DNA from: Eubacteriales bacterium
GTDB lineage: Bacteria; Bacillota; Clostridia; Lachnospirales; Lachnospiraceae
Direction of reading: 5' to 3'
DNA length: 62,614 nt
Assembly: GCA_030524225.1 (NCBI GenBank)
Contig: JAUNGV010000010.1
Coordinates: 1-62,614 of the forward strand
In this document: piece by piece, positions 7,546 to 52,500 of the stretch
How the letters are laid out: the number at the start of each line of letters is the position of its first letter
How positions within the stretch are numbered: the first letter of the stretch is position 1
Notes under the pieces: model-generated
What the model was told of the DNA's origin: nothing
Database searches by the model: none
The model's input: the letters and a program-made list of their open reading frames with translations, nothing else
Made by a program: the position numbers and the translations under genes

Positions 7546-7640
7546 ACCTCCATTCCGGAGCGCTTTACGCGACGGGGCGACGCAAATTTCAAATTTGCGT
7601 CTGCCATCATCGAGATTTGTGACGCTCCGGCACAAATCTC
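7546..7640 (-). repeat. Family B structured repeat, permease leader
   Basis: Best-preserved copy. Minus strand: stem GAGATTTGTG/CACAAATCTC (7640-7612) with loop CCGGAGCGT, linker GATGATGGCA, perfect 11-bp palindrome GACGCAAATTT/AAATTTGCGTC (7601-7579), linker, then GCGCTCCGGAATGGAGG. The last bases are the ribosome site of the permease gene. The loop CCGGAGCG is the exact complement of CGCTCCGG, and CTCC can alternatively pair with GGAG. Confidence 0.75.
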
Positions 7641-10228: not shown

Positions 10229-11476
10229 TTACGTGCGGTTCAGAGGCTCCTCTTCCTGATAATACGCAAGCAGTTTTTCCACCACCTGATTATAACTCAG
10301 AATTCCCTCGCTGACACCGTTGACTTTCAGCGTGGTATCCGTAAATGTCACCGATGCAGCGCGGGCTGTTTTCGTGGAAATGATCGCCTTCTCCTCCACC
10401 TTTTTCCACGCATCGTCCGTCAGGAAGGTATTGTCCGCCTTGACCAGCGCGGAGATTTCCACATGAGAGGCGTACACCTCCCTGTTCTTCCCAATCGAAT
10501 CATAGAAATCATTGTTCACATAATTGAGCACGCCCAGATAACCGCTGTAGACAAACGCCGGATCGTCCGAACCGATGCACGCCAGAAAACCCAGCATATT
10601 CGCGTCGTCCTCCTTGATGTATCCCTTTAAGTGCGACAGCTCATGACAGAGCGTAAACGGCACGTTCATCTGCGCCATGGTCGTGTTGTAATTCGCCTCC
10701 ATAGAGAACGGGAAATAATATCCCTGCATATAGGACTGGCTCATCAGATCCGAGAACGCCATCCCTTTCGGCTGCGGATAATACCCGCTCAGCTGCGGAT
10801 ACTCCTGCGACAGGCGCTGCATGGCCGCAATCGCCTCCTCCCGCACGTCCGCCTGAAAAACAACTTCCCCCGCCTCGTTTCTCGGCACCTCTCCCGCCAG
10901 TACATTGGCCTGCTCCACAATATAGTCACGCAGCAGAGCCAGCTGTTCTTTGGAGTAAAAAAGCGCTCTCTCCTGCTCGCTCCACTCCTTCGATCCGTCC
11001 GTCAGCCCCGTCGCCTGATAGAGGATAAAGCAGTTCAGCGTCATCACCAGCAGCACGGCCGCCAGCAGCCATGCCGTCGCTTCTGTAAAACGTGCGGAAA
11101 ACCGTCTCCACCGCACCGCGATCAAAACTTTCCCATCTCCGTGCTCTCCGCCCGCAAGGGAAACGTCCACACCTCCGCGCTCTCTTCCCGCCAGCCGCTT
11201 CCCCGCACCGCAGAGAGACAGAACTGCCGTCACCGCCAGCGTCAGCATCAGCGCAATCAGCCACAGCACCCCCAACACAATCATGACCTCTCCGACAGAA
11301 AAGGGCGCCAGCCCCGTCAGCCTCCCGTACGTCTCCGACCACAGCGGAAACACCCGGCGCACATACGCATCCGCAAACGCCTCACTGTTCCACGCTGCCA
11401 GATTCAAAACAGCCGAAGCCCCCAAAAGAACCGCCAGAAAGAACCATCGCCCGCGGCCACCCCGTCGTCTCCCCAT
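10229..11476 (-). CDS. DUF3810 family membrane protein with zinc-protease-like motif
   Basis: 415 residues. Three membrane helices occupy the N-terminal third (LAVLLGASAVLNLAAW; VGEVMIVLGVLWLIALMLTL; TAWLLAAVLLVMTLNCFILY). The soluble rest carries HELSHLKGYIKEDDAN near residue 277, an HExxH site with a downstream acidic pair, as in DUF3810, a family of presumed metallopeptidases. The long open frame upstream runs into the family A repeat, so I place the start at 11476 behind AGGGGTGG. Substrate unknown. Confidence 0.75.
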   Translation of the reverse strand: MGRRRGGRGRWFFLAVLLGASAVLNLAAWNSEAFADAYVRRVFPLWSETYGRLTGLAPFSVGEVMIVLGVLWLIALMLTLAVTAVLSLCGAGKRLAGRERGGVDVSLAGGEHGDGKVLIAVRWRRFSARFTEATAWLLAAVLLVMTLNCFILYQATGLTDGSKEWSEQERALFYSKEQLALLRDYIVEQANVLAGEVPRNEAGEVVFQADVREEAIAAMQRLSQEYPQLSGYYPQPKGMAFSDLMSQSYMQGYYFPFSMEANYNTTMAQMNVPFTLCHELSHLKGYIKEDDANMLGFLACIGSDDPAFVYSGYLGVLNYVNNDFYDSIGKNREVYASHVEISALVKADNTFLTDDAWKKVEEKAIISTKTARAASVTFTDTTLKVNGVSEGILSYNQVVEKLLAYYQEEEPLNRT

Positions 11477-11588
11477 ACGCCACCCCTTCCCAACGCGCCC
11501 CCACGCGTCAAATATCCATTCTTCTTTCAGTATAAGAAAATATTTTTCAGATAATAAGAATGGGATTTGAACACTTTGTAAACAATGA

Positions 11589-11716
11589 GCCGTGCACAGA
11601 ATGAAAAGAACACGCTTACGCCGTGCCTGCACGGAAGTAAGCGTGTTCTTTTCATTCTGTATAGGGCGAAGCCCCACACCGAGCCGCAGCGCAGCGAAGG
11701 CGAGGTGTGGCACGGC
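11589..11716. repeat. Family A cloverleaf repeat, copy 1
   Basis: Outer stem GCCGTGC (11589-11595)/GCACGGC (11710-11716). Hairpin 1: a perfect 24-bp stem, 11596-11619 with 11637-11660, capped by CCGTGC-CT-GCACGG (11621-11634). Hairpin 2: GGGC-GAA-GCCC (11664-11674). Hairpin 3: CCACACC (11674-11680)/GGTGTGG (11704-11710) around GAGCCGCAGCGCAGCG. It lies between the trkA stop and the DUF3810 start. The stem-1 sequence is not shared with the other copies, while the tip and hairpin 2 are. Confidence 0.8.
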
Positions 11717-11758
11717 GGAGTGACTGCAGCCGAGACACGCAGGGCCGCAGTGGCTTCC

Positions 11759-12409
11759 TCACTCCTCCTTCGAGATGCGGAACACATCCGCCGACTTCCC
11801 GATCACCACCACATGATCCCCTTCCCGGAACACATAATCCCCCTCCGGCGTGGGATTCAGATAAGAATCCCTGCGGATTGCGATAATATTGAACTTGCAG
11901 GTCTGCCGGATACGCAGCTCCGCGATGGTCTTTCCGATCCACTCCCGCAGAATCGCAATTTCAAAAATCGAATACTCCGACGTCAGCTCCACGAAATCAA
12001 AAATATTTTCCGAGTTATAGCGAACCGCCAGCTTCTCCGCATTCTCCCTCTCCGGATAGAAGACCTCATCCGCTCCGATCTTCTTCAGGAACTTGGCCTG
12101 CCTGTCCCTCTTGGCCCGGGAAACGACACATTTGGCCCCCATCTCCTTCAGACTCGAGGTGATCTCCAGCGTCGCGTAGAAATCCTCTCCAACCGTGACG
12201 AAGCAGTGATCGAAATTATTGACGCCCAGTGAGCGCAGCACATCCTCATTCGTGCAGTCCCCCGTATACGCGTTGTCAAAATCCGGCAGAAGCGCCTGAA
12301 TCACCGCCTCATCCTTGTCCACAATCATCACATCGTTTCCCAGTTCCTGCATCCTCGTCGCCAGATGCGTCCCGAGTCTCCCCATTCCGATCACCAGTAC
12401 CGATTTCAT
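11759..12409 (-). CDS. TrkA/KtrA family K+ channel regulator
   Basis: 216-residue cytosolic RCK protein that gates a K+ translocating subunit in response to bound nucleotide. The N-terminal Rossmann domain has GMGRLG at residues 8-13 and the acidic end of strand 2 in MIVDKDE; the C-terminal RCK_C domain covers about 135-216. AGGAG precedes the ATG at 12409. The membrane partner (ktrB/trkH) is not adjacent, so it must be elsewhere. An extended -10 promoter lies about 150 bases upstream and a family A repeat follows the stop. Confidence 0.88.
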   Translation of the reverse strand: MKSVLVIGMGRLGTHLATRMQELGNDVMIVDKDEAVIQALLPDFDNAYTGDCTNEDVLRSLGVNNFDHCFVTVGEDFYATLEITSSLKEMGAKCVVSRAKRDRQAKFLKKIGADEVFYPERENAEKLAVRYNSENIFDFVELTSEYSIFEIAILREWIGKTIAELRIRQTCKFNIIAIRRDSYLNPTPEGDYVFREGDHVVVIGKSADVFRISKEE

Positions 12410-12562
12410 AACGCTCTCCTTCTTTTCACGGCTAATTTTCAGCCAATATCTCATCGGATCAAATTTCTGCGGATGCTCCTAACCGATGGCACCGCTCCCC
12501 TCACAGATCGCTTCTTCCCCCGCTTCGCCGACGGGAAGCAGGGACAGGAACGAACACCTCGA

Positions 12563-12572
12563 TTATAGCACA
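12563..12572 (-). promoter_or_regulatory. Extended -10 promoter for trkA
   Basis: Minus strand reads TGTGCTATAATCG: TGC followed by a consensus TATAAT (12568-12563). No good -35 is seen, as is common for extended -10 promoters. Confidence 0.55.
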
Positions 12573-12652
12573 GATTCACGGAGATTACGTCGTCTGCACA
12601 GCGCCTCTTTGCCCTCCTCACTGCAAAAGACGTTGCATGTGTACCGGCTTTG

Positions 12653-13366
12653 CTATTTATCAACTTTATGCAGCAGTATGGCGCATACACAAACAGCCAA
12701 TATAAAAATTACTATCAGCGGCAATAAATTTTCAAACTGAAACGTACTGTCTGCCATCACTTTATATCCCCATGCGGCCGGAAAAATCTTTCCTGCCATT
12801 TCAAAGGCTTTTGGCATCAGTTCAATCGGAAACATAATCCCGGAGAGCACGACAGAGGGCAGAAAAATAATGATAGAAACCATTGAGGTTGTTGCCTGAT
12901 CTTTCACCGCCAAACCGATTATACTGGCAATGCTAAGGGATACCGCAATAAAAACAGCAAGGCAGGCAAAGTACAACACCGGATTTTCCGGTATCCCGGC
13001 ATGGAACACAACCGGCGCAGCAAGGTACAGAATTATGCTCATAATGAACAGATGTATATAGGCGGAAATATTCGTCAGAACAAGACCGAGATATAACGGC
13101 ACACCATTTGCTTTATAAACTTTTTTGATATCACTGCTGTAAATTTCAACAAGCGAGGGCGGCTGGCCAATTAACGCTCCCATCGTCACTCCGAAAACCG
13201 TCATGGACTGAATGAGCGTGTATCTTGTTTCCGGCATGACAGAGGTAAATACCCCACCCATAATTGCAAAGAACAGGAGAGGAACAATATAACAGGTTAT
13301 GAGTAATGTTTTACTCCGTATGTCTAACTTCCATTGCAAAGAAACCCCGTATAAAAATGCCCCCAT
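12653..13366 (-). CDS. ABC-2 type transporter permease
   Basis: 237 residues with six predicted membrane helices and the ABC-2 architecture: one N-terminal helix (LLITCYIVPLLFFAIMGGVF), a loop, then five. It starts immediately after the stop of the ATPase gene (13367), so the two are cotranscribed with the MerR gene ahead of them. Together they form a likely drug or peptide exporter; the substrate cannot be read from the sequence. Confidence 0.88.
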   Translation of the reverse strand: MGAFLYGVSLQWKLDIRSKTLLITCYIVPLLFFAIMGGVFTSVMPETRYTLIQSMTVFGVTMGALIGQPPSLVEIYSSDIKKVYKANGVPLYLGLVLTNISAYIHLFIMSIILYLAAPVVFHAGIPENPVLYFACLAVFIAVSLSIASIIGLAVKDQATTSMVSIIIFLPSVVLSGIMFPIELMPKAFEMAGKIFPAAWGYKVMADSTFQFENLLPLIVIFILAVCVCAILLHKVDK

Positions 13367-14179
13367 CTATGATTCCCCCTTCGCGATTTTCATAAAATGC
13401 TGTTCCAGAGTACCGCGGTTTATCTGTATATCCACAATAGATTCTCCATTTTCTTTATACTGTGTGAGCAGCGACAGCAATGTTTCTCCGATAATCCCAG
13501 ATTCATAGGTTTCGGTGCCGCTTTCCGTTTGAATTGTGATGTTATACTGTTTTCCCACTGTTTCACCCAGTTGCTCAACGGTTCCGGCAAAAGCAATCTT
13601 CCCCTCGGATAAAATGGCAATCCGGTCACACAAACTCTCCACTTCGGCCATGTCATGGCTTGCCAGCAGGATTGTTTTGCCCATTGCCTTTAATTGCCGG
13701 ATCTGTCTGTGTAAAGAAAGCCGGCCTTCCACATCAAGTCCGGCCGTTGGTTCATCAAGAAAAATAATGTCCGGATCCCGCGTCAGGGCAAGCGCCAGAT
13801 GAAGCCGCCGCTTCTGACCTGTTGATAATTGATAATACTGTTTCTCCGCAAATTCATAAATGCCGAGAGCGTCAAGGATTGTTTTGTCAATGGAACTTTT
13901 ATTCCATTTCGCAAACAATCTGACTGCTTCCAATGGTTTAATATGCTCCGGCAAAGAGGCTGACTGCAGCTGGATTCCTATTCTGCCGTTGATGGTAATA
14001 TGTCCGCTGTCGTATTTTCTCAGCCCTTCGATACATTCAAGAGAGGTGGTTTTCCCTGCGCCGTTTACACCGAGCAGCGCAAAAATCTCTCCCTGCCGTA
14101 CACAAAACTCCAAGCCGTTCAGCACAACATGGGTTCCGTAGCTTTTCTTTAAGCCGCTGATTTTCATAGCCTCATTCAT
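13367..14179 (-). CDS. ABC transporter ATP-binding protein
   Basis: 270-residue nucleotide-binding subunit for the following permease. Walker A GVNGAGKTT (about residues 38-46), signature LSTGQKRR, Walker B IIFLDEPTAGLD, and H-loop ASHD are all present; the Q-loop is in GIQLQSASLPE. AGGAGGG precedes the ATG, which overlaps the stop of the MerR gene (ATGA). The C-terminal 60 residues form a small regulatory domain as in CcmA/NatA-type exporters. Confidence 0.92.
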   Translation of the reverse strand: MNEAMKISGLKKSYGTHVVLNGLEFCVRQGEIFALLGVNGAGKTTSLECIEGLRKYDSGHITINGRIGIQLQSASLPEHIKPLEAVRLFAKWNKSSIDKTILDALGIYEFAEKQYYQLSTGQKRRLHLALALTRDPDIIFLDEPTAGLDVEGRLSLHRQIRQLKAMGKTILLASHDMAEVESLCDRIAILSEGKIAFAGTVEQLGETVGKQYNITIQTESGTETYESGIIGETLLSLLTQYKENGESIVDIQINRGTLEQHFMKIAKGES

Positions 14180-14976
14180 CTTGTTCCCTCCTGAAACGGG
14201 TCAACACCTATTCGGGAAAAATAGGAGCCTAATGCCTGCTCCACATAGCCGTTGGCAATCGTCTGTTTTTCTCTCCATTTCTGATTCGCATTTTGAAATT
14301 GCCCTAATTCCATGAGTTTAGGGAGCATACTCATATCTCCGCCGGTGAAATCCGTTATCATATCCCAATAGGCTTTTGCAAACTTCTGTCCCTCATCACT
14401 GTCTGCGGGAACGCCTGCATTTTGAAGTCTGATCGCTTCGTCCTGAAGCTGCATGAAAGTGTCCATAACCGCCCTTCCTCTGTCTTTGTCAAAACGGCTG
14501 CGGATGTGGTCGAGGGTCTGGTCATCAAAATGCTTGATTAACCAGTAGTAATCATTTTTCATCTGCAAATTAACAATAATGTCAGCATATTTTTTGAAGT
14601 CAACAGACTGCATTTGAAGGACTTCCTCGTGCAGCGCTTCCAGCTCCCTTAATGATTCAGACAGACTGTCTATTTTTTGCCTGACAGCGGCAGCCTGTTC
14701 CGTTAGAACAGCAGCAATTTCAGCCGGTGAATCAAGAGGAGTAAGCCGGTTTTTTATATCATCCAGAGAAAAACCCAGGTGTTTGAAGGACAAAATCTGA
14801 TGAAGCTTCACGATGTCTTTATCTGTATATAACCTGCGTCCCCCTTCGCTCACGGCTGAGGGAGAGAGCAAACCTTCTCTGTCGTAATGCTGCAGCGTCC
14901 GTACAGTGACGTCCATTTTCTTTGCGACTTCGCCAACGGTCATATAACCCTGTGGTATAGCCTTATGTTTATCCAT
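14176..14976 (-). CDS. MerR family transcriptional regulator
   Basis: 266 residues; the N-terminal winged helix (MTVGEVAKKMDVTVRTLQHY) and the dimerisation coiled coil (about 75-125) are typical, followed by a TipAS-like effector-binding part (residues about 150-260). AGGAGG lies seven bases before the ATG at 14976; an earlier in-frame ATG at 15006 sits in the promoter. First gene of a three-gene exporter operon that it probably controls, since its own promoter carries ACGTAACGT between -35 and -10. Confidence 0.9.
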   Translation of the reverse strand: MDKHKAIPQGYMTVGEVAKKMDVTVRTLQHYDREGLLSPSAVSEGGRRLYTDKDIVKLHQILSFKHLGFSLDDIKNRLTPLDSPAEIAAVLTEQAAAVRQKIDSLSESLRELEALHEEVLQMQSVDFKKYADIIVNLQMKNDYYWLIKHFDDQTLDHIRSRFDKDRGRAVMDTFMQLQDEAIRLQNAGVPADSDEGQKFAKAYWDMITDFTGGDMSMLPKLMELGQFQNANQKWREKQTIANGYVEQALGSYFSRIGVDPFQEGTR

Positions 14977-14992
14977 ATCGCACCTCCTGCTT

Positions 14993-15021
14993 ATAGTATG
15001 CCTCATTACGTTACGTCACAA
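14993..15021 (-). promoter_or_regulatory. MerR-ABC operon promoter and operator
   Basis: Minus strand: -35 TTGTGA (15021-15016), a 17-base spacer containing ACGTAACGT, and -10 TACTAT (14998-14993). The near-palindrome between the hexamers is where MerR proteins usually bind. Confidence 0.6.
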
Positions 15022-15171
15022 ACAAGTGCTTTTGAAAAGATTTCGAGAAAAAGATGGAACAGCGGACTGCTTCCTGTCAGATGAAGAATTTTGCCGCTTT
15101 GTTTAGATTCGCACAGTAAATCTCAGTTTTTTAACGTAACATTTATTACATACATTCCATTCCTCTCCCGG

Positions 15172-15177
15172 TATAAT
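15172..15177 (+). promoter_or_regulatory. -10 box for the 15.2-18.5 kb module
   Basis: TATAAT, 60 bases before the start of the binding-protein gene; the -35 region (about CATACA) is poor, so activation may be needed. Confidence 0.4.
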
Positions 15178-15236
15178 CAGCCGTGAAAACAGACAGAACC
15201 GGCACCCGTAAATAAACACACAGGAAAGGAGCTCTC

Positions 15237-16490
15237 ATGGCAAATCCCTACTTCTCCCTCTCCGAAAAGGTATTCGACGTCACAGAACGCTATCCGGCGC
15301 TCATCGATCTTCTGGCCGACAATGGCTTTGAACCGCTGCGCAGCGACACGCTGCGCAAAACCCTCGGCAAAACCATCTCTCTGGAAAGCGCCCTTCGCTC
15401 CCGGCATTTTGATCCCGCTCTGTTTGAGCAGCGCATGGTCGATGTCATCGAACAGGATTCCTCCGCTCTTCTCAAAGCGCTCTCTCCCGAGGCCATAGGA
15501 CGCAGTGAAAACGCCGGAATCCGCATAAGCGGCATTCTCCCCTGCCCGATCCGCGTGCAGCTTGTGGAACATCTGCAGCGCTGGATTGATGAACACCAGC
15601 TGTCAGTGGACTGCAATCTGCAGGCGGCCAGCATGGGCGTCGAACATCTGCGGCATGAGATTGCCGCGGCAGAAAACGCCGGTGATCTCTCCGACCTCTA
15701 TCTGTCTGCCGGTTTCAGCGTCTTTTTTGACCGCAGTATCATGGGCCGTTTTACCGATGCCGGCGTGTTCACCGATCTGACCGGGTACGAGCGGCTGAAC
15801 CGGGATTTTGACAACGACCGGATCGACTTCAAAGATCCCCTGCATCGTTTCTCCATCATCGGCGCAGTGCCCGCCGTCTTCATGGTCAATGAGGATCAGC
15901 TCGCAGGCCGCCCGCGCCCGGAGCGCTGGTCGGATCTGCTGCGCCCCGAGTTCGAGAACAGCCTCGCCCTGCCGGTCAGAGACCTCGATCTCTTCAACGC
16001 CGTTCTCCTCGGCATCGCCGCGGCATACGGGGAGGACGGCGTGCGCCGCCTCGGCCGCGCCCTCCACAGCGATATGCACCCCGCCCAGATGATTCAGTCC
16101 GGCAACCGCCGCCAGAACGGCCCCGCCGTCACCGTCATGCCCTATTTCTTCACGCAAATGGCGAAGGAGAGCGGACCGATGAAGACGGTCTGGCCCAAAG
16201 ACGGCGCGATTGCCAGCCCGATTTTTCTCCTGACCAAAGTCGCCTCCGGAGATCGTATTCAGCCTCTCGTGGATTTCCTTACCTCCGAAGCGACCGGAAG
16301 AATCTTCTGCGCGGGCGGCAAATTCCCGACCACCAATCCCGGTATCGATAACGGCCTCTCCGCAGACCAGACCTTCCTCTGGCCCGGCTGGGACTATCTC
16401 CACGCACACGACATCGGCGCGGTACTGGCGCACGCAGAGCGCATATTTGCAGAGGCGGAACACGCAGAGAAAGGGGATTCCCTGTCATGA
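15237..16490 (+). CDS. Solute-binding-like protein with DUF1858-like N-terminus, no signal peptide
   Basis: 417 residues. Residues about 8-60 resemble DUF1858 (VTERYPALIDLLADNGFEPL), a small domain seen in redox and metal proteins. Residues about 90-410 resemble an iron-type periplasmic binding protein (FEDLLRPEFENSLALP-like segment RWSDLLRPEFENSLALPVRD). No signal peptide or lipobox is present, so unlike normal binding proteins it should stay in the cytoplasm. AGGAG precedes the ATG, and its stop overlaps the GTPase start (ATGA), so the two are translationally coupled. Ligand unknown. Confidence 0.75.
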   Translation: MANPYFSLSEKVFDVTERYPALIDLLADNGFEPLRSDTLRKTLGKTISLESALRSRHFDPALFEQRMVDVIEQDSSALLKALSPEAIGRSENAGIRISGILPCPIRVQLVEHLQRWIDEHQLSVDCNLQAASMGVEHLRHEIAAAENAGDLSDLYLSAGFSVFFDRSIMGRFTDAGVFTDLTGYERLNRDFDNDRIDFKDPLHRFSIIGAVPAVFMVNEDQLAGRPRPERWSDLLRPEFENSLALPVRDLDLFNAVLLGIAAAYGEDGVRRLGRALHSDMHPAQMIQSGNRRQNGPAVTVMPYFFTQMAKESGPMKTVWPKDGAIASPIFLLTKVASGDRIQPLVDFLTSEATGRIFCAGGKFPTTNPGIDNGLSADQTFLWPGWDYLHAHDIGAVLAHAERIFAEAEHAEKGDSLS

Positions 16491-17176
16491 ATCTGATTAT
16501 TGTCTCCGGTCCTCCCTCCTCGGGCAAGACCTCCGTGATCCTGAAAACCATCGACGCGTTCCGCGCACAGAATCTCTCTGTCGGCGTCGTGAAATTCGAC
16601 TGTCTGGCTTCCGACGACGACCTGCTCTACGAGCGGGCAGGCGTCAGAGTGAAGAAAGGAATCTCCGGCGCACTCTGCCCCGATCACTTTTTTGCCTCCA
16701 ATATCGAGGACGTGGTGAAATGGGGCATACAGGAGAACTTCGATCTGCTGATCACCGAATCTGCCGGTCTGTGCAATCGCTGCTCTCCCTACCTGACGGA
16801 AATCAAAGGCGTCTGCGTCATCGATAATCTCTCCGGCATCAATACCCCGAAAAAAATCGGCCCGATGCTGCAGGCGGCGGATATCGTCGTCATCACCAAA
16901 GGCGACATCGTCTCGCAGGCGGAGCGTGAAGTCTTTGCCGCCCGCGTCAGCGCGGTCAATCCCCGCGCCATGATCCTGCACGTCAACGGCCTGAGCGGAC
17001 AGGGCGCCTACGAACTGAGCACACTGCTGCAGGAGAACGCCCCCTCTCTCATCACCGTAAAAGATCAGAAACTCCGCTTCCCCATGCCCTCCGCCATGTG
17101 CTCCTACTGCCTCGGCGAGACCCGCATCGGCGAAGCCTACCAACTGGGAAACAGCAAAAAAATGGACTGGCAATGA
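16487..17176 (+). CDS. HypB/CobW-like P-loop GTPase
   Basis: 229 residues. P-loop GPPSSGKT (8-15), an ESAG segment (91-94) in the switch region, and TKGD (137-140) as the guanine-specificity motif. Cysteines in CNRC (96-99), Cys110 and a C-terminal CSYC suggest metal or cluster binding. This is the pattern of SIMIBI metallochaperone GTPases (HypB, CobW, UreG), but it is not one of those. It overlaps the preceding gene by four bases and is separated from the ABC gene by a repeat array. Likely delivers or releases a metal or cofactor; the client is unknown. Confidence 0.75.
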   Translation: MNLIIVSGPPSSGKTSVILKTIDAFRAQNLSVGVVKFDCLASDDDLLYERAGVRVKKGISGALCPDHFFASNIEDVVKWGIQENFDLLITESAGLCNRCSPYLTEIKGVCVIDNLSGINTPKKIGPMLQAADIVVITKGDIVSQAEREVFAARVSAVNPRAMILHVNGLSGQGAYELSTLLQENAPSLITVKDQKLRFPMPSAMCSYCLGETRIGEAYQLGNSKKMDWQ

Positions 17177-17308
17177 GCCGTGCGGAATTATGAAAAAGAA
17201 AGTGGCTGCGCCGTGCTTGCACGGAAGCCGCCGCTTACTTTTTCATAATTCCATAGGGCGAAGCCCTCCACCGAGCCGCAGCGAAGCGCAGGCGAGGTGG
17301 CGCACGGC
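17177..17308. repeat. Family A cloverleaf repeat, copy 2
   Basis: Outer stem GCCGTGCG (17177-17184)/CGCACGGC (17301-17308). Hairpin 1: 26 bp with two mismatches and one G-U, 17184-17209 with 17227-17252, tip CCGTGC-TT-GCACGG. Hairpin 2: GGGC-GAA-GCCC (17256-17266). Hairpin 3: CCACC (17268-17272)/GGTGG (17296-17300). It begins right at the GTPase stop. Confidence 0.8.
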
Positions 17309-17530
17309 GGACTAACAGTTTACGATGAGCCGCAGCGAAGCGCACGGCGGACTAACGGCCTGCAACGATCTGCGCCCAGCCGCAGCGAAGCGCAGGCAAG
17401 GTGGCGTCCGGCGGACTAACGGCCTGCAGCGAACCGCGCCCAGACGCAGCGAAGCGCAGGCGAGGTGGCGCACGGCGGACTAACAGTCTACGATGAACCG
17501 CAGCGAAGCGTCCGGCGGACTAACGCGCCG
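17309..17530 (+). repeat. Tandem array of family A 3' halves
   Basis: After copy 2 come about four further diverged units, each containing CCGCAGCGAAGCG and GGCGGACTAAC, spaced 50-75 bases. Only the hairpin-3 half of the element is repeated, without the long hairpin. The array ends with TCCGGAATGGAG, the ribosome site of the ABC gene. Confidence 0.7.
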
Positions 17531-17554
17531 CGCCAATCCGGAATGGAGATTCCT

Positions 17555-18547
17555 ATGAAAATCAAAGAATTACTGACACAATACCCCTTTGTCGCCGATT
17601 TCTTCGAGCAGAACCGCCTCGAGGTATCGGACGCGCTGGAACTGACCTTCCCGCAATTTCTGGAAAGTCTCAGCGAAGAGGAACGCGAGGAAAAAGCGAT
17701 CGATCCCGCCGTTCTGACCGGAGCGCTCGATCAGTATATGCAGCAGATGAGCGCCTTTCTCGGCCTGGACGACGACCGACGCCTGCGCTCCCTGACGATT
17801 CTGCCCGGACACGACAAAACCGGGAAATCGGAGGGCTTCTCCCGGCTCGACATTTATCCGTCGCAGATCCTCTCCATTGTCGGACCGACCGGTGCGGGCA
17901 AGAGCCGCCTGTTGGCCGATATCGAATGGGCGGCGCAGGGCGACACGCCCACAGGCCGCAGCATCCTGATCAACGACGGCGCTCCCGATCCGAAATGGCG
18001 CTACTCCCCGAACAATAAACTCGTCGCCCAGCTCTCGCAGAATATGAATTTCGTCATGGATCTGCGCGTCGGGGAATTTCTCCAGCTTCACGCCCAGAGC
18101 CGCATGGCTGAGAATGGCGACGAACTGTGCCGCCGTATTCTCAAAGCCGCCAACGAACTGGCCGGAGAGTCTTTTGATCGGAACACGCCCGTGACCAGCC
18201 TCTCCGGCGGCCAGTCCCGCGCGCTGATGATCGCCGACACCGCGATTTTGAGCGCCTCTCCGATTATCCTGATCGATGAGATCGAGAACGCCGGTATCGA
18301 CCGGCAGAAAGCCCTGCAGCTCCTCGTCTCCGAGGAGAAAATCGTCCTGATGGCGACGCACGATCCTCTTCTGGCTCTGCTCGCCGACCGTCGTATCGTG
18401 ATTCGCGGCGGCGGAATCTGTTCCATTTTAGAGACAAGCCCTGAAGAAAAAGAGCTTCTTCAGGACTTTTACCGCATCGACGAGATCATGCAGGACGCGC
18501 GCCGCCGACTGCGCGCCGGAGAACGTCTTTGTGCTCCGACTCAATGA
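17555..18547 (+). CDS. ABC ATPase with DUF1858-like N-terminus, no partner permease
   Basis: 330 residues. Residues 1-45 (MKIKELLTQYPFVADFFEQN) resemble DUF1858 as in the binding protein two genes earlier. The ABC domain has Walker A GPTGAGKS (110-117), signature LSGGQ (216-220), Walker B IILIDE (237-242) followed by IENAGID instead of the usual PTxGLD, and H269. No membrane subunit is encoded nearby, so it is probably not a transporter; soluble ABC proteins also act in cofactor insertion and enzyme activation. Start at 17555 behind GGAG; the upstream open frame is repeat sequence. Confidence 0.75.
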   Translation: MKIKELLTQYPFVADFFEQNRLEVSDALELTFPQFLESLSEEEREEKAIDPAVLTGALDQYMQQMSAFLGLDDDRRLRSLTILPGHDKTGKSEGFSRLDIYPSQILSIVGPTGAGKSRLLADIEWAAQGDTPTGRSILINDGAPDPKWRYSPNNKLVAQLSQNMNFVMDLRVGEFLQLHAQSRMAENGDELCRRILKAANELAGESFDRNTPVTSLSGGQSRALMIADTAILSASPIILIDEIENAGIDRQKALQLLVSEEKIVLMATHDPLLALLADRRIVIRGGGICSILETSPEEKELLQDFYRIDEIMQDARRRLRAGERLCAPTQ

Positions 18548-20891: not shown

Positions 20892-21514
20892 TTTATAAAG
20901 ACATATCCATTTTCTTCAAGAGTATTGATAAGAAGCTGATCCTGACTGCGGCAGCGGCTATTGTTCTGCTTATTTTCAACGCCGGAATTTACGCCGGTTT
21001 ATTTGCTTCTGTTATGTTTGCCATGACAGTCGGTATGCAGAACATTATGAGTTTTGCAAGCGACGAAAAGGTGAGTTGGAAAAAATACCAATTAACCATG
21101 CCAGTAAGAAGCTTTGCTGTCGTTGCAAGTAAATATGTTTCTGTTCTCTATACGATAGCAGTCAGCGTTTTGGGCAGTATTGCGTTCAATAGTTTATCCA
21201 GTTTGATTTTCCATAACTTTGATCTACTTATCTGGTTATTTTCGATTACGGCAGCAGTTATTATTCCGTTATTATGGACAGGAATTTGCCTGCCGCTCAC
21301 TTATTGGTTTGGGTTTCGTTCTGCACAGACCATGGGATTACTTGCCGTAATTCCAATATTTTACTTTGTGAAATATTTTGAAGATGGCCCGGGAATATCC
21401 GCAATGCTGAATTCTGCCTACTCCTATATGATCGTTGCCGCCATTGCCGCAGTCATAATTTTCGGAATTTCCTTAGTGGTTAGTACCATCGGATATAGCA
21501 AAAAGAATTTATAG
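20879..21514 (+). CDS. ABC-2 type permease
   Basis: 211 residues with six membrane helices; the segment RSFAVVASKYVSVLY is typical of the ABC2_membrane_2 family. Partner of the preceding ATPase. GntR-ATPase-permease sets of this form act in cell-envelope stress or peptide-antibiotic resistance in Bacillota; the substrate here is not known. A strong hairpin follows the stop. Confidence 0.88.
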   Translation: MRGLIYKDISIFFKSIDKKLILTAAAAIVLLIFNAGIYAGLFASVMFAMTVGMQNIMSFASDEKVSWKKYQLTMPVRSFAVVASKYVSVLYTIAVSVLGSIAFNSLSSLIFHNFDLLIWLFSITAAVIIPLLWTGICLPLTYWFGFRSAQTMGLLAVIPIFYFVKYFEDGPGISAMLNSAYSYMIVAAIAAVIIFGISLVVSTIGYSKKNL

Positions 21515-21520
21515 GAAAAA

Positions 21521-21585
21521 GATTGAAAAATAAGCTCGATGGCTTATTTTTCAATCCCGAGATTTGTACCGGAATGTCATAAATC
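21521..21585. terminator. Bidirectional terminator and shared hairpin repeat
   Basis: Perfect 15-bp stem GATTGAAAAATAAGC (21521-21535)/its inverse (21542-21556), loop TCGATG, between two convergent genes. The same GAAAAATAAGC hairpin recurs at 52469-52496. It is followed by GAGATTTGT, ACCGG and ATAAATC (21559-21585), a diverged relative of the family B first hairpin. Confidence 0.75.
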
Positions 21586-21644
21586 CCGCAACGGTATGTA
21601 AAAAAAAATTTTTAAGTGTTGAAAGCGGCGAAACACCTGCTCCT

Positions 21645-39584: not shown

Positions 39585-40499
39585 ATGGACTTCCTATTAA
39601 ATATCATCGAGCAGGGGCTGATCTACGGCATCCTCGCGCTCGGCGTCTATATCACCTACAAGATTCTCGACTTTCCGGATCTGAGCGTGGACGGTTCCTT
39701 CCCTCTGGGAGGAGCCGTCGCCGCCGTCTGCATCACCAACGGCATGAATCCCTACCTGACGCTCCCGGTGACCTTCCTCGCCGGCATGGCGGCGGGCGCG
39801 TTTACCGGACTCGTCCACGTCAAGTGCCGCGTCCGGGATCTGCTCTCCGGTATCGTGACGATGACCGCTCTCTACTCGGTCAATCTCCTCGTCGCCGGTT
39901 CGAACAACGTCCCGCTCTTTTCCCAGGACACCATTTTCCGGAACAGCGCTCTGTCCGCCCTCTTCGGAGAGAAAATCCCGACCTGGTTCGAGATCGCCCT
40001 GCTTCTCGTGATCGTCCTGATCCTCAAGATCCTGCTCGATCTCTACCTGCAGACCAAGTCCGGCTATCTGCTGCGCGCCGTGGGCGACAATCCCGCCCTT
40101 GTCACCGCCCTCGCAAAGGACAAGGGCAACGTCAAGATTCTGGGGCTTGCGATCTCCAACGGTCTCGTGGCCTTAAGCGGCTGTATCTTCGCACAACAGG
40201 CGCGCGTCTTTGACATCTCCTCCGGTACCGGCACCCTCGTGATCGGTCTGGCCAGCGTCATCATCGGATTCAGCTTTTTCGGCAAATTCGGCCTGCTGAA
40301 AACGTCGACCGCCGTCATTCTCGGCTCGATTTTCTACAAAGCCTGCGTGGCCCTCGCCCTGCGCTTTACCGGCAATTCCACATTCGGAACGAAAGCGACC
40401 AAGCTCGTGACCGCCGCCCTGTTTCTGATCATCCTGATCATTGGCATCGAAAGAAAGAAGAAGGTGAAGATTCATGCTGGAACTGAAACACATTCATAA
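39585..40499 (+). CDS. trpY: Tryptophan-type ABC importer, permease
   Basis: 304 residues, about eight to nine helices of the BPD_transp_2 (LivH/RbsC) fold; GVYITYKILDFPDLSVDGSF is characteristic of this transporter group. Start at 39585 with GGAGG five bases before; the frame is open to 39462 without a ribosome site. Overlaps the ATPase gene by 26 bases. Confidence 0.86.
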   Translation: MDFLLNIIEQGLIYGILALGVYITYKILDFPDLSVDGSFPLGGAVAAVCITNGMNPYLTLPVTFLAGMAAGAFTGLVHVKCRVRDLLSGIVTMTALYSVNLLVAGSNNVPLFSQDTIFRNSALSALFGEKIPTWFEIALLLVIVLILKILLDLYLQTKSGYLLRAVGDNPALVTALAKDKGNVKILGLAISNGLVALSGCIFAQQARVFDISSGTGTLVIGLASVIIGFSFFGKFGLLKTSTAVILGSIFYKACVALALRFTGNSTFGTKATKLVTAALFLIILIIGIERKKKVKIHAGTETHS

Positions 40500-41247
40500 A
40501 TACTACAATCCCGGCACAATCAACGAGATGTGTCTGTTCGAAGATTTCAACCTGACCGTAGAGGACGGCCAGTTCGTCTCGATCATCGGCAGCAACGGCT
40601 CCGGAAAAACCTCGATGCTCAACCTGATCTGCGGCAGCATCGATCCCGAAGCCGGAGAAATCCTCCTCGACGGCAAGGACATCTCCCGCCAGAAGGAATA
40701 TATGCGCAACCGCTACATCGGCCGCGTCTATCAGAATCCCGCGATGGGCACCTGCCCCGACATGACGATCGCGGAGAATATGTCGATCGCCGACAACAAG
40801 GGAAAGCGCTACGGTCTTGCCCCCGGCCGCAACAAAGCCCGGATGGACTTCTACCGGGAATCGCTCCGCGAACTCGGCCTCGGACTCGAGGATAAAATGG
40901 ATACGAAAGTCGGCGTCCTCTCCGGCGGGCAGCGTCAGGCTCTCGCCCTGGAAATGACCACCCTCACACCGATCCGCTTCCTGATTCTGGACGAGCACAC
41001 CGCCGCCCTCGATCCCAAAACCGCCGAGATCATCATGCACCTGACCGACCGCCTCGTCCGGGAAAAGAAACTGACCACCATCATGGTCACCCACAACCTC
41101 CGCTACGCCGTAGAATACGGCGACCGCCTCCTCATGATGCACCAGGGCCGCGCCATCCTCGACCTGCAAGGCGAAGAAAAGCAAAACACAAAAGTCAAAG
41201 ACCTCCTGGACCAATTCAACGCAATAAGCATTGAGAGTGGAAACTGA
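40474..41247 (+). CDS. trpZ: Tryptophan-type ABC importer, ATPase
   Basis: 257 residues. Walker A GSNGSGKT (about 37-44), signature LSGGQRQAL, Walker B FLILDEHTAALD (His in place of the usual Pro, common in this group) and H-loop VTHN. Its start lies within the end of the permease gene. A family A repeat follows ten bases after the stop and probably also ends transcription. Confidence 0.88.
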   Translation: MLELKHIHKYYNPGTINEMCLFEDFNLTVEDGQFVSIIGSNGSGKTSMLNLICGSIDPEAGEILLDGKDISRQKEYMRNRYIGRVYQNPAMGTCPDMTIAENMSIADNKGKRYGLAPGRNKARMDFYRESLRELGLGLEDKMDTKVGVLSGGQRQALALEMTTLTPIRFLILDEHTAALDPKTAEIIMHLTDRLVREKKLTTIMVTHNLRYAVEYGDRLLMMHQGRAILDLQGEEKQNTKVKDLLDQFNAISIESGN

Positions 41248-41256
41248 CGCGAAAGC

Positions 41257-41390
41257 ATGAGCCATGCGTCACACAATAAAAAACTCCTGTGCCGTGTTTA
41301 CACGGAAACAGGAGTTTTTTAATTGTGTGACATAGGGCGAAGCCCGCGCCCGAGCTGCAGCGAAGCGAAAGCGAGGGACGCATGGCTCAT
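41257..41390. repeat. Family A cloverleaf repeat, copy 3
   Basis: Outer stem ATGAGCCATGCGTC (41257-41270)/its exact inverse (41377-41390). Hairpin 1: 23/24 bp with one bulge, 41268-41290 with 41308-41331, tip CCGTGT-TT-ACACGG. Hairpin 2: GGGC-GAA-GCCC (41335-41345). Hairpin 3: GCGCCC/GGG(A)CGC. The tip pair changed from C-G to T-A relative to copies 1 and 2, and the outer stem from G-C to A-T, so pairing is kept. Confidence 0.8.
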
Positions 41391-41566
41391 CCCCCGGCAG
41401 TGAACTGCCGTGTTTACACGGATGCAAACGCTTTTTGTTGTATCTGCATAGGGCGAAGCCCTTCGTCGAACCGCAGCGAAGCGAAAGCGAGGGACGCATG
41501 GCTCATCCCCCGGCAGCGAAGCCCTTCATCGAGCCGCAGCGAAGCGCAGGCGAGATGAAGCATGGC
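41391..41566. repeat. Partial family A repeats, copies 4 and 5
   Basis: Copy 4 has the tip CCGTGT-TT-ACACGG (41408-41421), a right hairpin-1 arm (41423-41447) but no matching left arm, then GGGC-GAA-GCCC and hairpin 3. Copy 5 is only a half GCGAAGCCC and hairpin 3 CTTCATC (41524-41530)/GATGAAG (41554-41560), again with arms of its own. Both end in GCATGGCTCAT. Confidence 0.7.
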
Positions 41567-52369: not shown

Positions 52370-52500
52370 CCTCATTTCGGAGCGCTCTGCGCGACGGGAC
52401 GACGCAAATCTGAAATTTGCGTCCGCCATAATCGGGATTTGTGATGCTCCGGCACAAATCCCGGAATTGAAAAATAAGCTATCGAGCTTATTTTTCGATC
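52370..52500 (-). repeat. Family B structured repeat plus shared hairpin, uvrC leader
   Basis: Minus strand: hairpin GAAAAATAAGCT/AGCTTATTTTTC (52496-52469), then stem GGGATTTGTG/CACAAATCCC (52462-52434) with loop CCGGAGCAT, linker GATTATGGCG, GACGCAAAT/ATTTGCGTC (52423-52401), then GCGCTCCGAAATGAGG at the uvrC start. Compared with 7546-7640, the stem base pair A-T became G-C on both sides. A third small palindrome GGAGCGCAGAGCGCTCC lies at about 52513-52529. Confidence 0.75.

Follow-up and report, generated by a model that had tools for sequence, protein, structure and literature searches.

A dispersed cloverleaf repeat of clostridia, a putative short form of the Clostridiales-1 motif, whose drifting long hairpin may serve as a transcription terminator

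Bacterial repeat families such as REP/BIME, bcr and RUP/BOX keep the sequence of their stems, and by their general description they are, like the element presented here, dispersed, structured and intergenic. The layout also brings to mind retron msr-msd, integron attC and RAYT-REP elements, families marked by a companion reverse transcriptase, integrase or Y1 transposase and by GTTRRRY or GTAG motifs. The closest described system is the Clostridiales-1 motif (Rfam RF01699), which came from Clostridiales and human gut sequences and is entered in the 2010 motif table as probably an RNA, probably not cis-regulatory and probably not a riboswitch (Weinberg et al. 2010, PMC2864571). The motif family is thus already catalogued, Clostridiales-1 having been listed without a function since 2010, and its name or accession also turns up in papers on elephant-shark cDNA, human tandem repeats and deep-learning RNA classes. 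Clostridiales-1 consists of an outer 7-bp stem, a long hairpin with a GC-TT-GC (GCUUGC) tip and two more hairpins, and our element has the same parts in the same order, in clostridial hosts, with several related copies matching as whole elements on the same strand. It differs in its second hairpin, which in Clostridiales-1 is about 50 nt long (UGAG..GAAG/CGGA..CGAA, with internal loops) and in the window copies 11 nt, and in length, with 166 model positions against about 130 in the short form; furthermore, the long-hairpin arms of the genome studied here are mutually unrelated. A literature search outside supplementary files and most subscription papers found no earlier description of the short form, of its strand signature and gene-end placement, or of the IS66-type ends of its sister subfamily B, although an earlier description may exist.

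The element was studied in a window of 62,614 nt, the whole stretch of lachnospiraceal DNA that was analysed, where the following features were recognised:

11589..11716, plus strand: copy 1, full element; outer stem GCCGTGC (11589-11595) / GCACGGC (11710-11716)
11596..11661, plus strand: hairpin 1 of copy 1; arms 11596-11619 and 11637-11660, tip GCCGTGCCTGCACGG at 11620-11634
11664..11674, plus strand: hairpin 2 of copy 1, GGGC-GAA-GCCC
11675..11709, plus strand: hairpin 3 of copy 1, CACACC/GGTGTG, tip GAGCCGCAGCGCAGCGAAGGCGAG
17177..17308, plus strand: copy 2, full element; TTTTT at 17239-17243
17309..17535, plus strand: degenerate 3'-module tandem copies (GCAGCGAAGCGCAGGCGAGGTGGCGCACGGCGGACTAAC) between copy 2 and the next gene
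41257..41390, plus strand: copy 3, full element (41261-41386 without the longer outer stem); TTTTTT at 41315-41320 in the 3' arm
41405..41504, plus strand: copy 4, broken; tip, right arm, hairpins 2 and 3 and 3' outer arm present, left arm missing
41512..41559, plus strand: fragment, 3' module alone, containing the CTTCATC/GATGAAG pair

As proposed in the preliminary description of the window, the three full copies have one layout in common, consisting of an outer stem, the long hairpin 1, the GGGC-GAA-GCCC hairpin 2 and hairpin 3, and this was borne out by the folding energies of copies 1, 2 and 3 (-84.6, -79.9 and -76.6 kcal/mol; z-scores -11.6, -7.7 and -10.7), which were equalled by 0/200 dinucleotide shuffles. 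The fold of copy 4 barely beats its shuffles (z -0.95). The hairpin-3 arms reported to differ between copies do pair, but the CTTCATC/GATGAAG pair that had been assigned to copy 3 belongs to the fragment at 41512-41559, the hairpin-3 pairing of copy 3 being just CCC/GGG. The position of the element had been given as always just after a gene, and this holds for copy 2, which adjoins with no gap the stop codon (TGA) of a gene for a CobW/HypB-type NTPase (16487-17176, plus strand), and for copy 3, which starts 9 nt past the stop codon of an ABC transporter ATPase gene (40474-41247, plus strand). Copy 1, which has TTTT at 11649-11652 in the 3' arm of hairpin 1, does lie behind a TrkA-type gene (11762-12454, minus strand) but is antisense to it, and also to its other Pfam-matched neighbour, a DUF3810 gene on the minus strand (start at or below 11713). 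A scan of the window copies found no promoter-like site beside them. Behind full copies there are decaying 3'-module tandems (GCAGCGAAGCG..GGCGAGG..GCACGGC; 17309-17535 and 41388-41560 in the window), which look as if they multiply independently, and a similar tail stands behind the copy next to purH in the same genome. The window also holds a second palindromic repeat family (..CGGAGCGC..GACGCAAATTTCAAATTTGCGTC..) at 7551-7638, at 52373-52460 and, inverted, at 21511-21588, with copies 86-89% alike and unrelated to the cloverleaf.

The arms of hairpin 1 had been described as unrelated between copies while self-complementary within each. Within the genome of the window this stood, as the median identity among the arms was 0.48, against 0.45 in shuffled arms and 0.67 in the remainder of the element (21 copies), but in G011 and G041, two other genomes with 5 copies compared in each, the arms show some relatedness, with median identities of 0.83 and 0.73, respectively, and the wording "different in every copy" is therefore best suited to the genome of the window. 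In a MAFFT alignment of seven copies from this genome, three of them from the window, standard pairs filled 92.6% of 349 cells and 33 of the 51 pairs had changed on both sides, compared with 34-46% standard pairs and 8-16 such changed pairs in controls where the partners were slid by 1-3 columns. Both-side changes were seen in 49/51 pairs of a model-fitted alignment, and the helices containing them numbered 5/7 in the seven copies and 6/6 in the model-fitted set. Hairpin 2, reported as constant, is so in the window copies but varies outside the window (GGGCGCAAGCCC, CGGCGAATGCCG and others) with its pairing kept, and the distance from the tip to the end of hairpin 2 was 55-57 nt in 6/6 matches from the window's genome. 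Comparison of 27 pairs of related copies, with each copy used once, gave 20 two-sided changes that stayed paired and 17 changes to or from G.U, together with 38 one-sided breaks (8 to A.C and 30 otherwise) and 8 two-sided changes with one unpaired. These changes look like ordinary drift with compensation and decay, and not like copying of both arms. An origin of the arms from other genomic loci was also considered, and was dropped after a search for 13-letter words from eight arms; apart from copies of the element, the minor part of the genome that was searched held no more than stray words of copy 2, in three places.

The covariance model suggested in the preliminary description was built from the seven copies (R1), and matched at least 35/62 genomes of the genus (at least 14/26 among the good ones) and at least 23 places in the genome of the window, several of these being fragments or sister types. 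A second model (R2), made from 51 genus matches, matched at least 57/246 genomes across the order, the window's genome included, in at least 34/117 genera and 7 families; the genome counts for both models are lower bounds, since a limited number of candidates was scored per genome. An exact spaced pattern gave 30 stretches in 84,980 named species genomes, with a model match in 25 of them (28 matches; Roseburia, Eisenbergiella, Clostridium sp. and Lachnospiraceae records). The stretches from Opitutae (L094), Rhodospirillaceae (L107) and Chloroflexi (L115) were without model match and taken as chance, and those from Clostridia (L111) and Lachnospiraceae (L116, where the pattern lies at a contig end) were likewise without model match. 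Thirty control loci, made up of 16 with the 12-letter hairpin-2 word, 13 purH loci free of the element by eye, and L040, gave a single R1 match, at L040 (G057:C1:1798666-1800642; E 8.6e-10), which is a look-alike tandem array with a 133-nt period, made of an element of this layout, in a genome of another family. Carriage by phages was rejected, as viral contigs gave 0 and 1 matches and the sole match (L303), which resembles coding DNA by eye, was dropped. Another dispersed palindrome (CAAGGGCTTCGCCCTTGACCC..GGGTCAAGGGCGAAGCCCTTG) was seen at L042, L048, L052 and L055 (G058, same order).

For the counts given below, 22, 49, 27 and 63 of 29, 51, 28 and 64 model matches were kept, after removal of matches that were antisense, partial or cut by a contig end, and of one surplus tandem copy in L079 and another in L173; some of the rows kept are sister types (e.g. 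L129, L183 and L120:3063), and copies sharing an identical core entered as one. The mismatch count required at least 14 matched arm positions and covered 153 distinct copies of the 161 rows. A further set drew a single copy from each of 29 additional genomes, all of them outside the genus and 12 outside the family, and is not fully independent, as L310 and L311 are the same element and several copies come from genus g26.

The preliminary description knew of no named family with this layout, and held that identification as a known repeat would speak against its reading. RF01699 is a named family that shares this layout and is matched by several related copies, which largely makes the element a known repeat, although the window copies tested were without a match: an Rfam scan of the window at the gathering threshold gave none, the copies within 11000-18000 had no RF01699 match up to E 10 (a MIR535 match there, with 29.5 of 64 bits, and similar ones were taken as long-hairpin noise), and the curated cut-off of 48 bits was not reached by the window copies tested. 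In a permissive scan, 2/8 related loci matched, L070 with 51.7 bits over the whole element, as the sole scanned short-form copy above the cut-off of 48, and L149 with 31.9 bits, below it. Among 13 loci of the window's genome, L120 (1535-1660, 42.8 bits) and L125 (33.4 bits) matched RF01699 below the cut-off, both being matched strongly by R1 at that place too (115.6 bits at L120:1534), and the alignment of L120 to RF01699 has the second hairpin mostly deleted. Six of 20 order-level loci matched below the cut-off (E 6e-5 to 5e-3), with the same extent and strand as their R2 match, compared with 0/20 control loci and 0/20 further genus loci (E up to 5). RF01699 itself matched 31/62 genus genomes, 27 of these above the cut-off, and 19 places in the window's genome at E <=0.01, one of them above the cut-off. 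Some copies are thus homologous to RF01699 via intermediate sequences, L120 being matched by both R1 and RF01699; the reverse test is weaker, with R1 finding 0/10 genus RF01699 loci at the RF01699 place, though it does find subfamily B. As the RF01699 alignments have the same helix order and tip and a shortened second hairpin, we consider the element a short variant form of Clostridiales-1, which by the curated score falls outside the family.

Pairing maintained at the level of double-stranded DNA predicts equal frequencies of G.U and A.C mismatches, since a G.U mismatch on one strand reads as A.C on the other. The mismatches of hairpin 1 were G.U in 88 cases versus A.C in 28 among the 153 distinct copies (14:5 in the window's genome, 40:17 in the genus and 34:6 in the named genomes), with 58 copies having more G.U versus 15 having more A.C, and the 29 further genomes gave 26 versus 5, a set in which choice by model score slightly favours G.U. 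The excess of G.U indicates that the plus strand as drawn is the strand whose fold matters. Of the two causes offered earlier for pairing kept through sequence change, selection on the pairing is backed by the two-sided changes and by this asymmetry, while a mechanism that writes both arms together is disfavoured, because the mismatches depend on the strand and the differences between related copies consist of G.U steps, changes on both sides and breaks. The ratio of G.U to A.C was 26:33 in the outer stem and 21:16 in hairpin 3 in the first set, which hinted at hairpin 1 acting as RNA and the remainder as DNA, but this was not borne out by the 29 further copies (7:3 and 7:0, respectively). Oppositions of G and A are frequent in hairpins 1 and 3, and are conserved and purine-rich.

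The 3' arm of hairpin 1 contained T-runs of at least 4 nt in 57 copies versus A-runs of that length in 7 (153 copies, a slightly different set from that of the mismatch count), and in 24 versus 3 of the 29 further genomes. An A-run in the 5' arm, a GC-rich top, a tight tip and a T-run are the make-up of a two-way intrinsic terminator, as judged from sequence, and copy 3 (AAAAAACTCCTGT..ACAGGAGTTTTTT) is a clear case. Like intrinsic bidirectional terminators, the element combines A-run, GC-rich stem, short loop and T-run, often right behind stop codons, and unlike them it has its T-run paired within a longer stem, inside a larger repeated element. A generic terminator scan gave no clear excess over shuffles (6 versus 6.1, two of the six at hairpin 1 of copy 1; in a second scan 3 versus 1.2, none at hairpin 1), which is explained by the U-run lying inside the stem, where the scan wants a T-run after it. 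The terminator role considered possible in the preliminary description is backed by the polarity of the T-runs and by the placement of the copies.

By mechanical placement rules, which are wrong for at least window copy 1, 46 of the 153 copies stand close behind the stop codon of a long reading frame, 48 follow a T-run, 5 both (99 in these three groups) and 11 a TATAATG box, with 43 in no class. The T-runs of hairpin 1 merely tended to be commoner in copies behind stop codons than in those behind upstream T-runs (at least 4 nt, 20/46 versus 14/48, p 0.20; at least 5 nt, 13/46 versus 4/48, p 0.016). In the window's genome, 16/22 copies are in the sense orientation right behind the stop codon of a reading frame, 2 are antisense only (both secondary tandem copies), 2 have both (including window copy 1, which is really antisense), 1 has neither and 1 was too short. 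The genes in front presumably encode GroEL, EF-Tu, GAPDH, ribosomal protein S9 and ABC exporters, as named from their C-termini; those read as GroEL, EF-Tu, GAPDH and ABC exporters precede the element in more than one genome, with unrelated arms. In many genus copies the upstream T-run ends a native hairpin terminator (by eye), and a T-box match below the cut-off lies directly upstream in L149 and L074. A tRNA is present at most 15 nt upstream in 3/20 order-level loci (L315, L319 and L328), and in one lineage the copies are preceded by a TATAATG box. A TPP riboswitch lies near one copy of the window's genome (L122, 539-659, minus strand). Behind purH, there is presence/absence variation at one site: among 30 loci, 29 of them readable, the element is present in 3/29, as a short form in the window's genome, as a short form in G064 (by eye) and as an RF01699 match above the cut-off in G045, and the other 26 have no element within 210 nt (by eye).

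The same genome contains a sister subfamily, B (L224, L226-L236 and L238-L241), which has the same fold type and ends in GTAACAGTTCAGCC, and is matched by RF01699 and, partly over hairpin 1 alone, by R1; unlike in the window's subfamily, its arms are nearly identical between copies (by eye). Direct repeats of 8 bp were seen outside the ends of subfamily B at 3/12 places (by eye), two of them perfect (TTAGTTGT and AACAAATA) and one with a mismatch. The ends of IS66 elements typically start with GTAA. The single trace of an IS66 transposase found in the window's genome is a fragment at L272 (G000:C52; 21.9 bits against a cut-off of 23.1), and a subfamily B end, identical in 14/14 letters, lies about 70 nt upstream of this remnant. 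In the genus, 2/30 IS66 loci had ends of the type GTAACTGTTCAG.. with perfect 8-bp duplications, in a search where ends were sought only as GTAA starts and loci may not reach both ends. The ends of subfamily B thus equal that at L272 and resemble those of two genus IS66 copies, and given these shared ends and the 8-bp duplications, subfamily B looks like a miniature element moved by IS66 transposases. A further genome of the genus (G069) has 35 IS66 transposase-family matches, many near-identical and some in two pieces.

Unlike IS66 and its miniature derivatives, the subfamily found in the window ends in GCAATGAGCC../..GGCTCATTGC, not in GTAAC[AT]GTTCAG, and no direct repeat at one fixed distance occurred in more than 2 of its 156 flank pairs. 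Its flanks contained 37 repeats of 8 letters versus 17 in shuffled flanks, a surplus largely accounted for by tandem copies and by three copies in which the TATAATG box occurs a second time. In L092, L103 and L106 (Lachnospiraceae, Clostridium sp. and Roseburia) a TATAAT-bearing repeat of 8 or 9 letters is found on both sides at similar distance, which represents either a target duplication or a second promoter-like box. The dispersal of the window's subfamily suggests that it too may be, or have been, mobile.

We regard it as somewhat more probable than otherwise that the element is a repeat of mobile type and that its hairpin 1 provides the preceding gene with an intrinsic terminator, the arms being free to drift. 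It would be a dispersed unit of about 130 nt with terminal inverted repeats forming the outer stem, many of its copies residing at the ends of transcription units. Hairpin 1 would act as an intrinsic and often two-way terminator, its upper stem being rich in GC and its tip short, with a U-run of the 3' arm facing an A-run of the 5' arm. As a terminator needs only pairing and the U-run, the arms could drift freely with pairing kept, maintained by one-sided G.U steps and two-sided changes. The tip, hairpin 2 and the hairpin-3 loop may have stayed recognisable through spread of the element as one unit, or through binding of some partner. We infer from the make-up of hairpin 1 that transcription may end there; such transcripts would lack hairpins 2 and 3, although the pairing of these hairpins varies with compensation, which must then be explained by read-through molecules or a DNA-level role.

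An alternative is a stand-alone or processed structured RNA, in which the whole cloverleaf is functional, acting in trans or binding a protein, and the arms are a mere spacer helix. Both-side changes in 5/7 and 6/6 helices, the conservation of purine-rich G.A oppositions in hairpins 1 and 3 and the TATAATG box in front of one lineage's copies all agree with such an RNA, as does the entry of Clostridiales-1 in the 2010 table as probably an RNA and probably neither cis-regulatory nor a switch (PMC2864571). We nevertheless consider it unlikely, since the window copies have no adjacent promoter-like site and two of them, copies 2 and 3, are found directly 3' of a gene, since a stand-alone RNA does not call for T-run polarity or for many gene-end positions, and since many diverged or broken copies per genome contrast with one defined RNA gene.

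A role in DNA, where the outer repeats and hairpins 2 and 3 fold in single strands for transposition or replication and template-switch correction of the quasi-palindrome keeps the arms complementary, would fit the transposon-type ends of subfamily B with its 8-bp direct repeats at 3/12 places, the first-set outer stem without G.U excess (26:33) and the near-perfect arms of many copies; hairpin 2 would in that case be a mini-hairpin of the d(GCGAAGC) type. We hold this to be quite improbable, as the hairpin-1 mismatches are strongly strand-asymmetric, the G.A oppositions persist where copy-correction would erase them, and one-sided breaks are common between related copies. Hairpin 1 might finally be the gene's own old terminator, an ordinary local structure around which a small repeat has inserted, and the arms do resemble intrinsic terminators and differ from gene to gene. 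They are, however, enclosed by constant sequence on both sides at nearly constant spacing (the 55-57 nt above), the same arrangement is also seen behind native terminators, tRNAs and promoter-like boxes, positions that do not require such a terminator, and the element-free purH loci have no hairpin with the arm sequence of the window genome's own copy (by eye), so that we rejected this origin of the arms as very improbable.

With a mobile-type repeat carrying its own terminator as the preferred reading, a wider possibility, which we put forward tentatively and regard as rather doubtful, is that the Clostridiales-1 "RNA" as a whole is a superfamily of mobile terminators. These would be small transposon-type elements, with at least one subfamily moved by IS66 transposases, each bringing along an intrinsic terminator whose sequence drifts fast. 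Inserted at stop codons, terminators and tRNAs, or behind them, they would come to form the 3' end of the host gene, and the hypervariable arm would be the trace of selection for pairing alone. If the proposed explanation is true, a motif catalogued as a probable non-coding RNA would for the most part be a dispersed repeat and a source of transcription terminators, which by spreading shapes the ends of genes in many clostridia. It would also provide a natural case of a helix selected for pairing, with little selection on its sequence.
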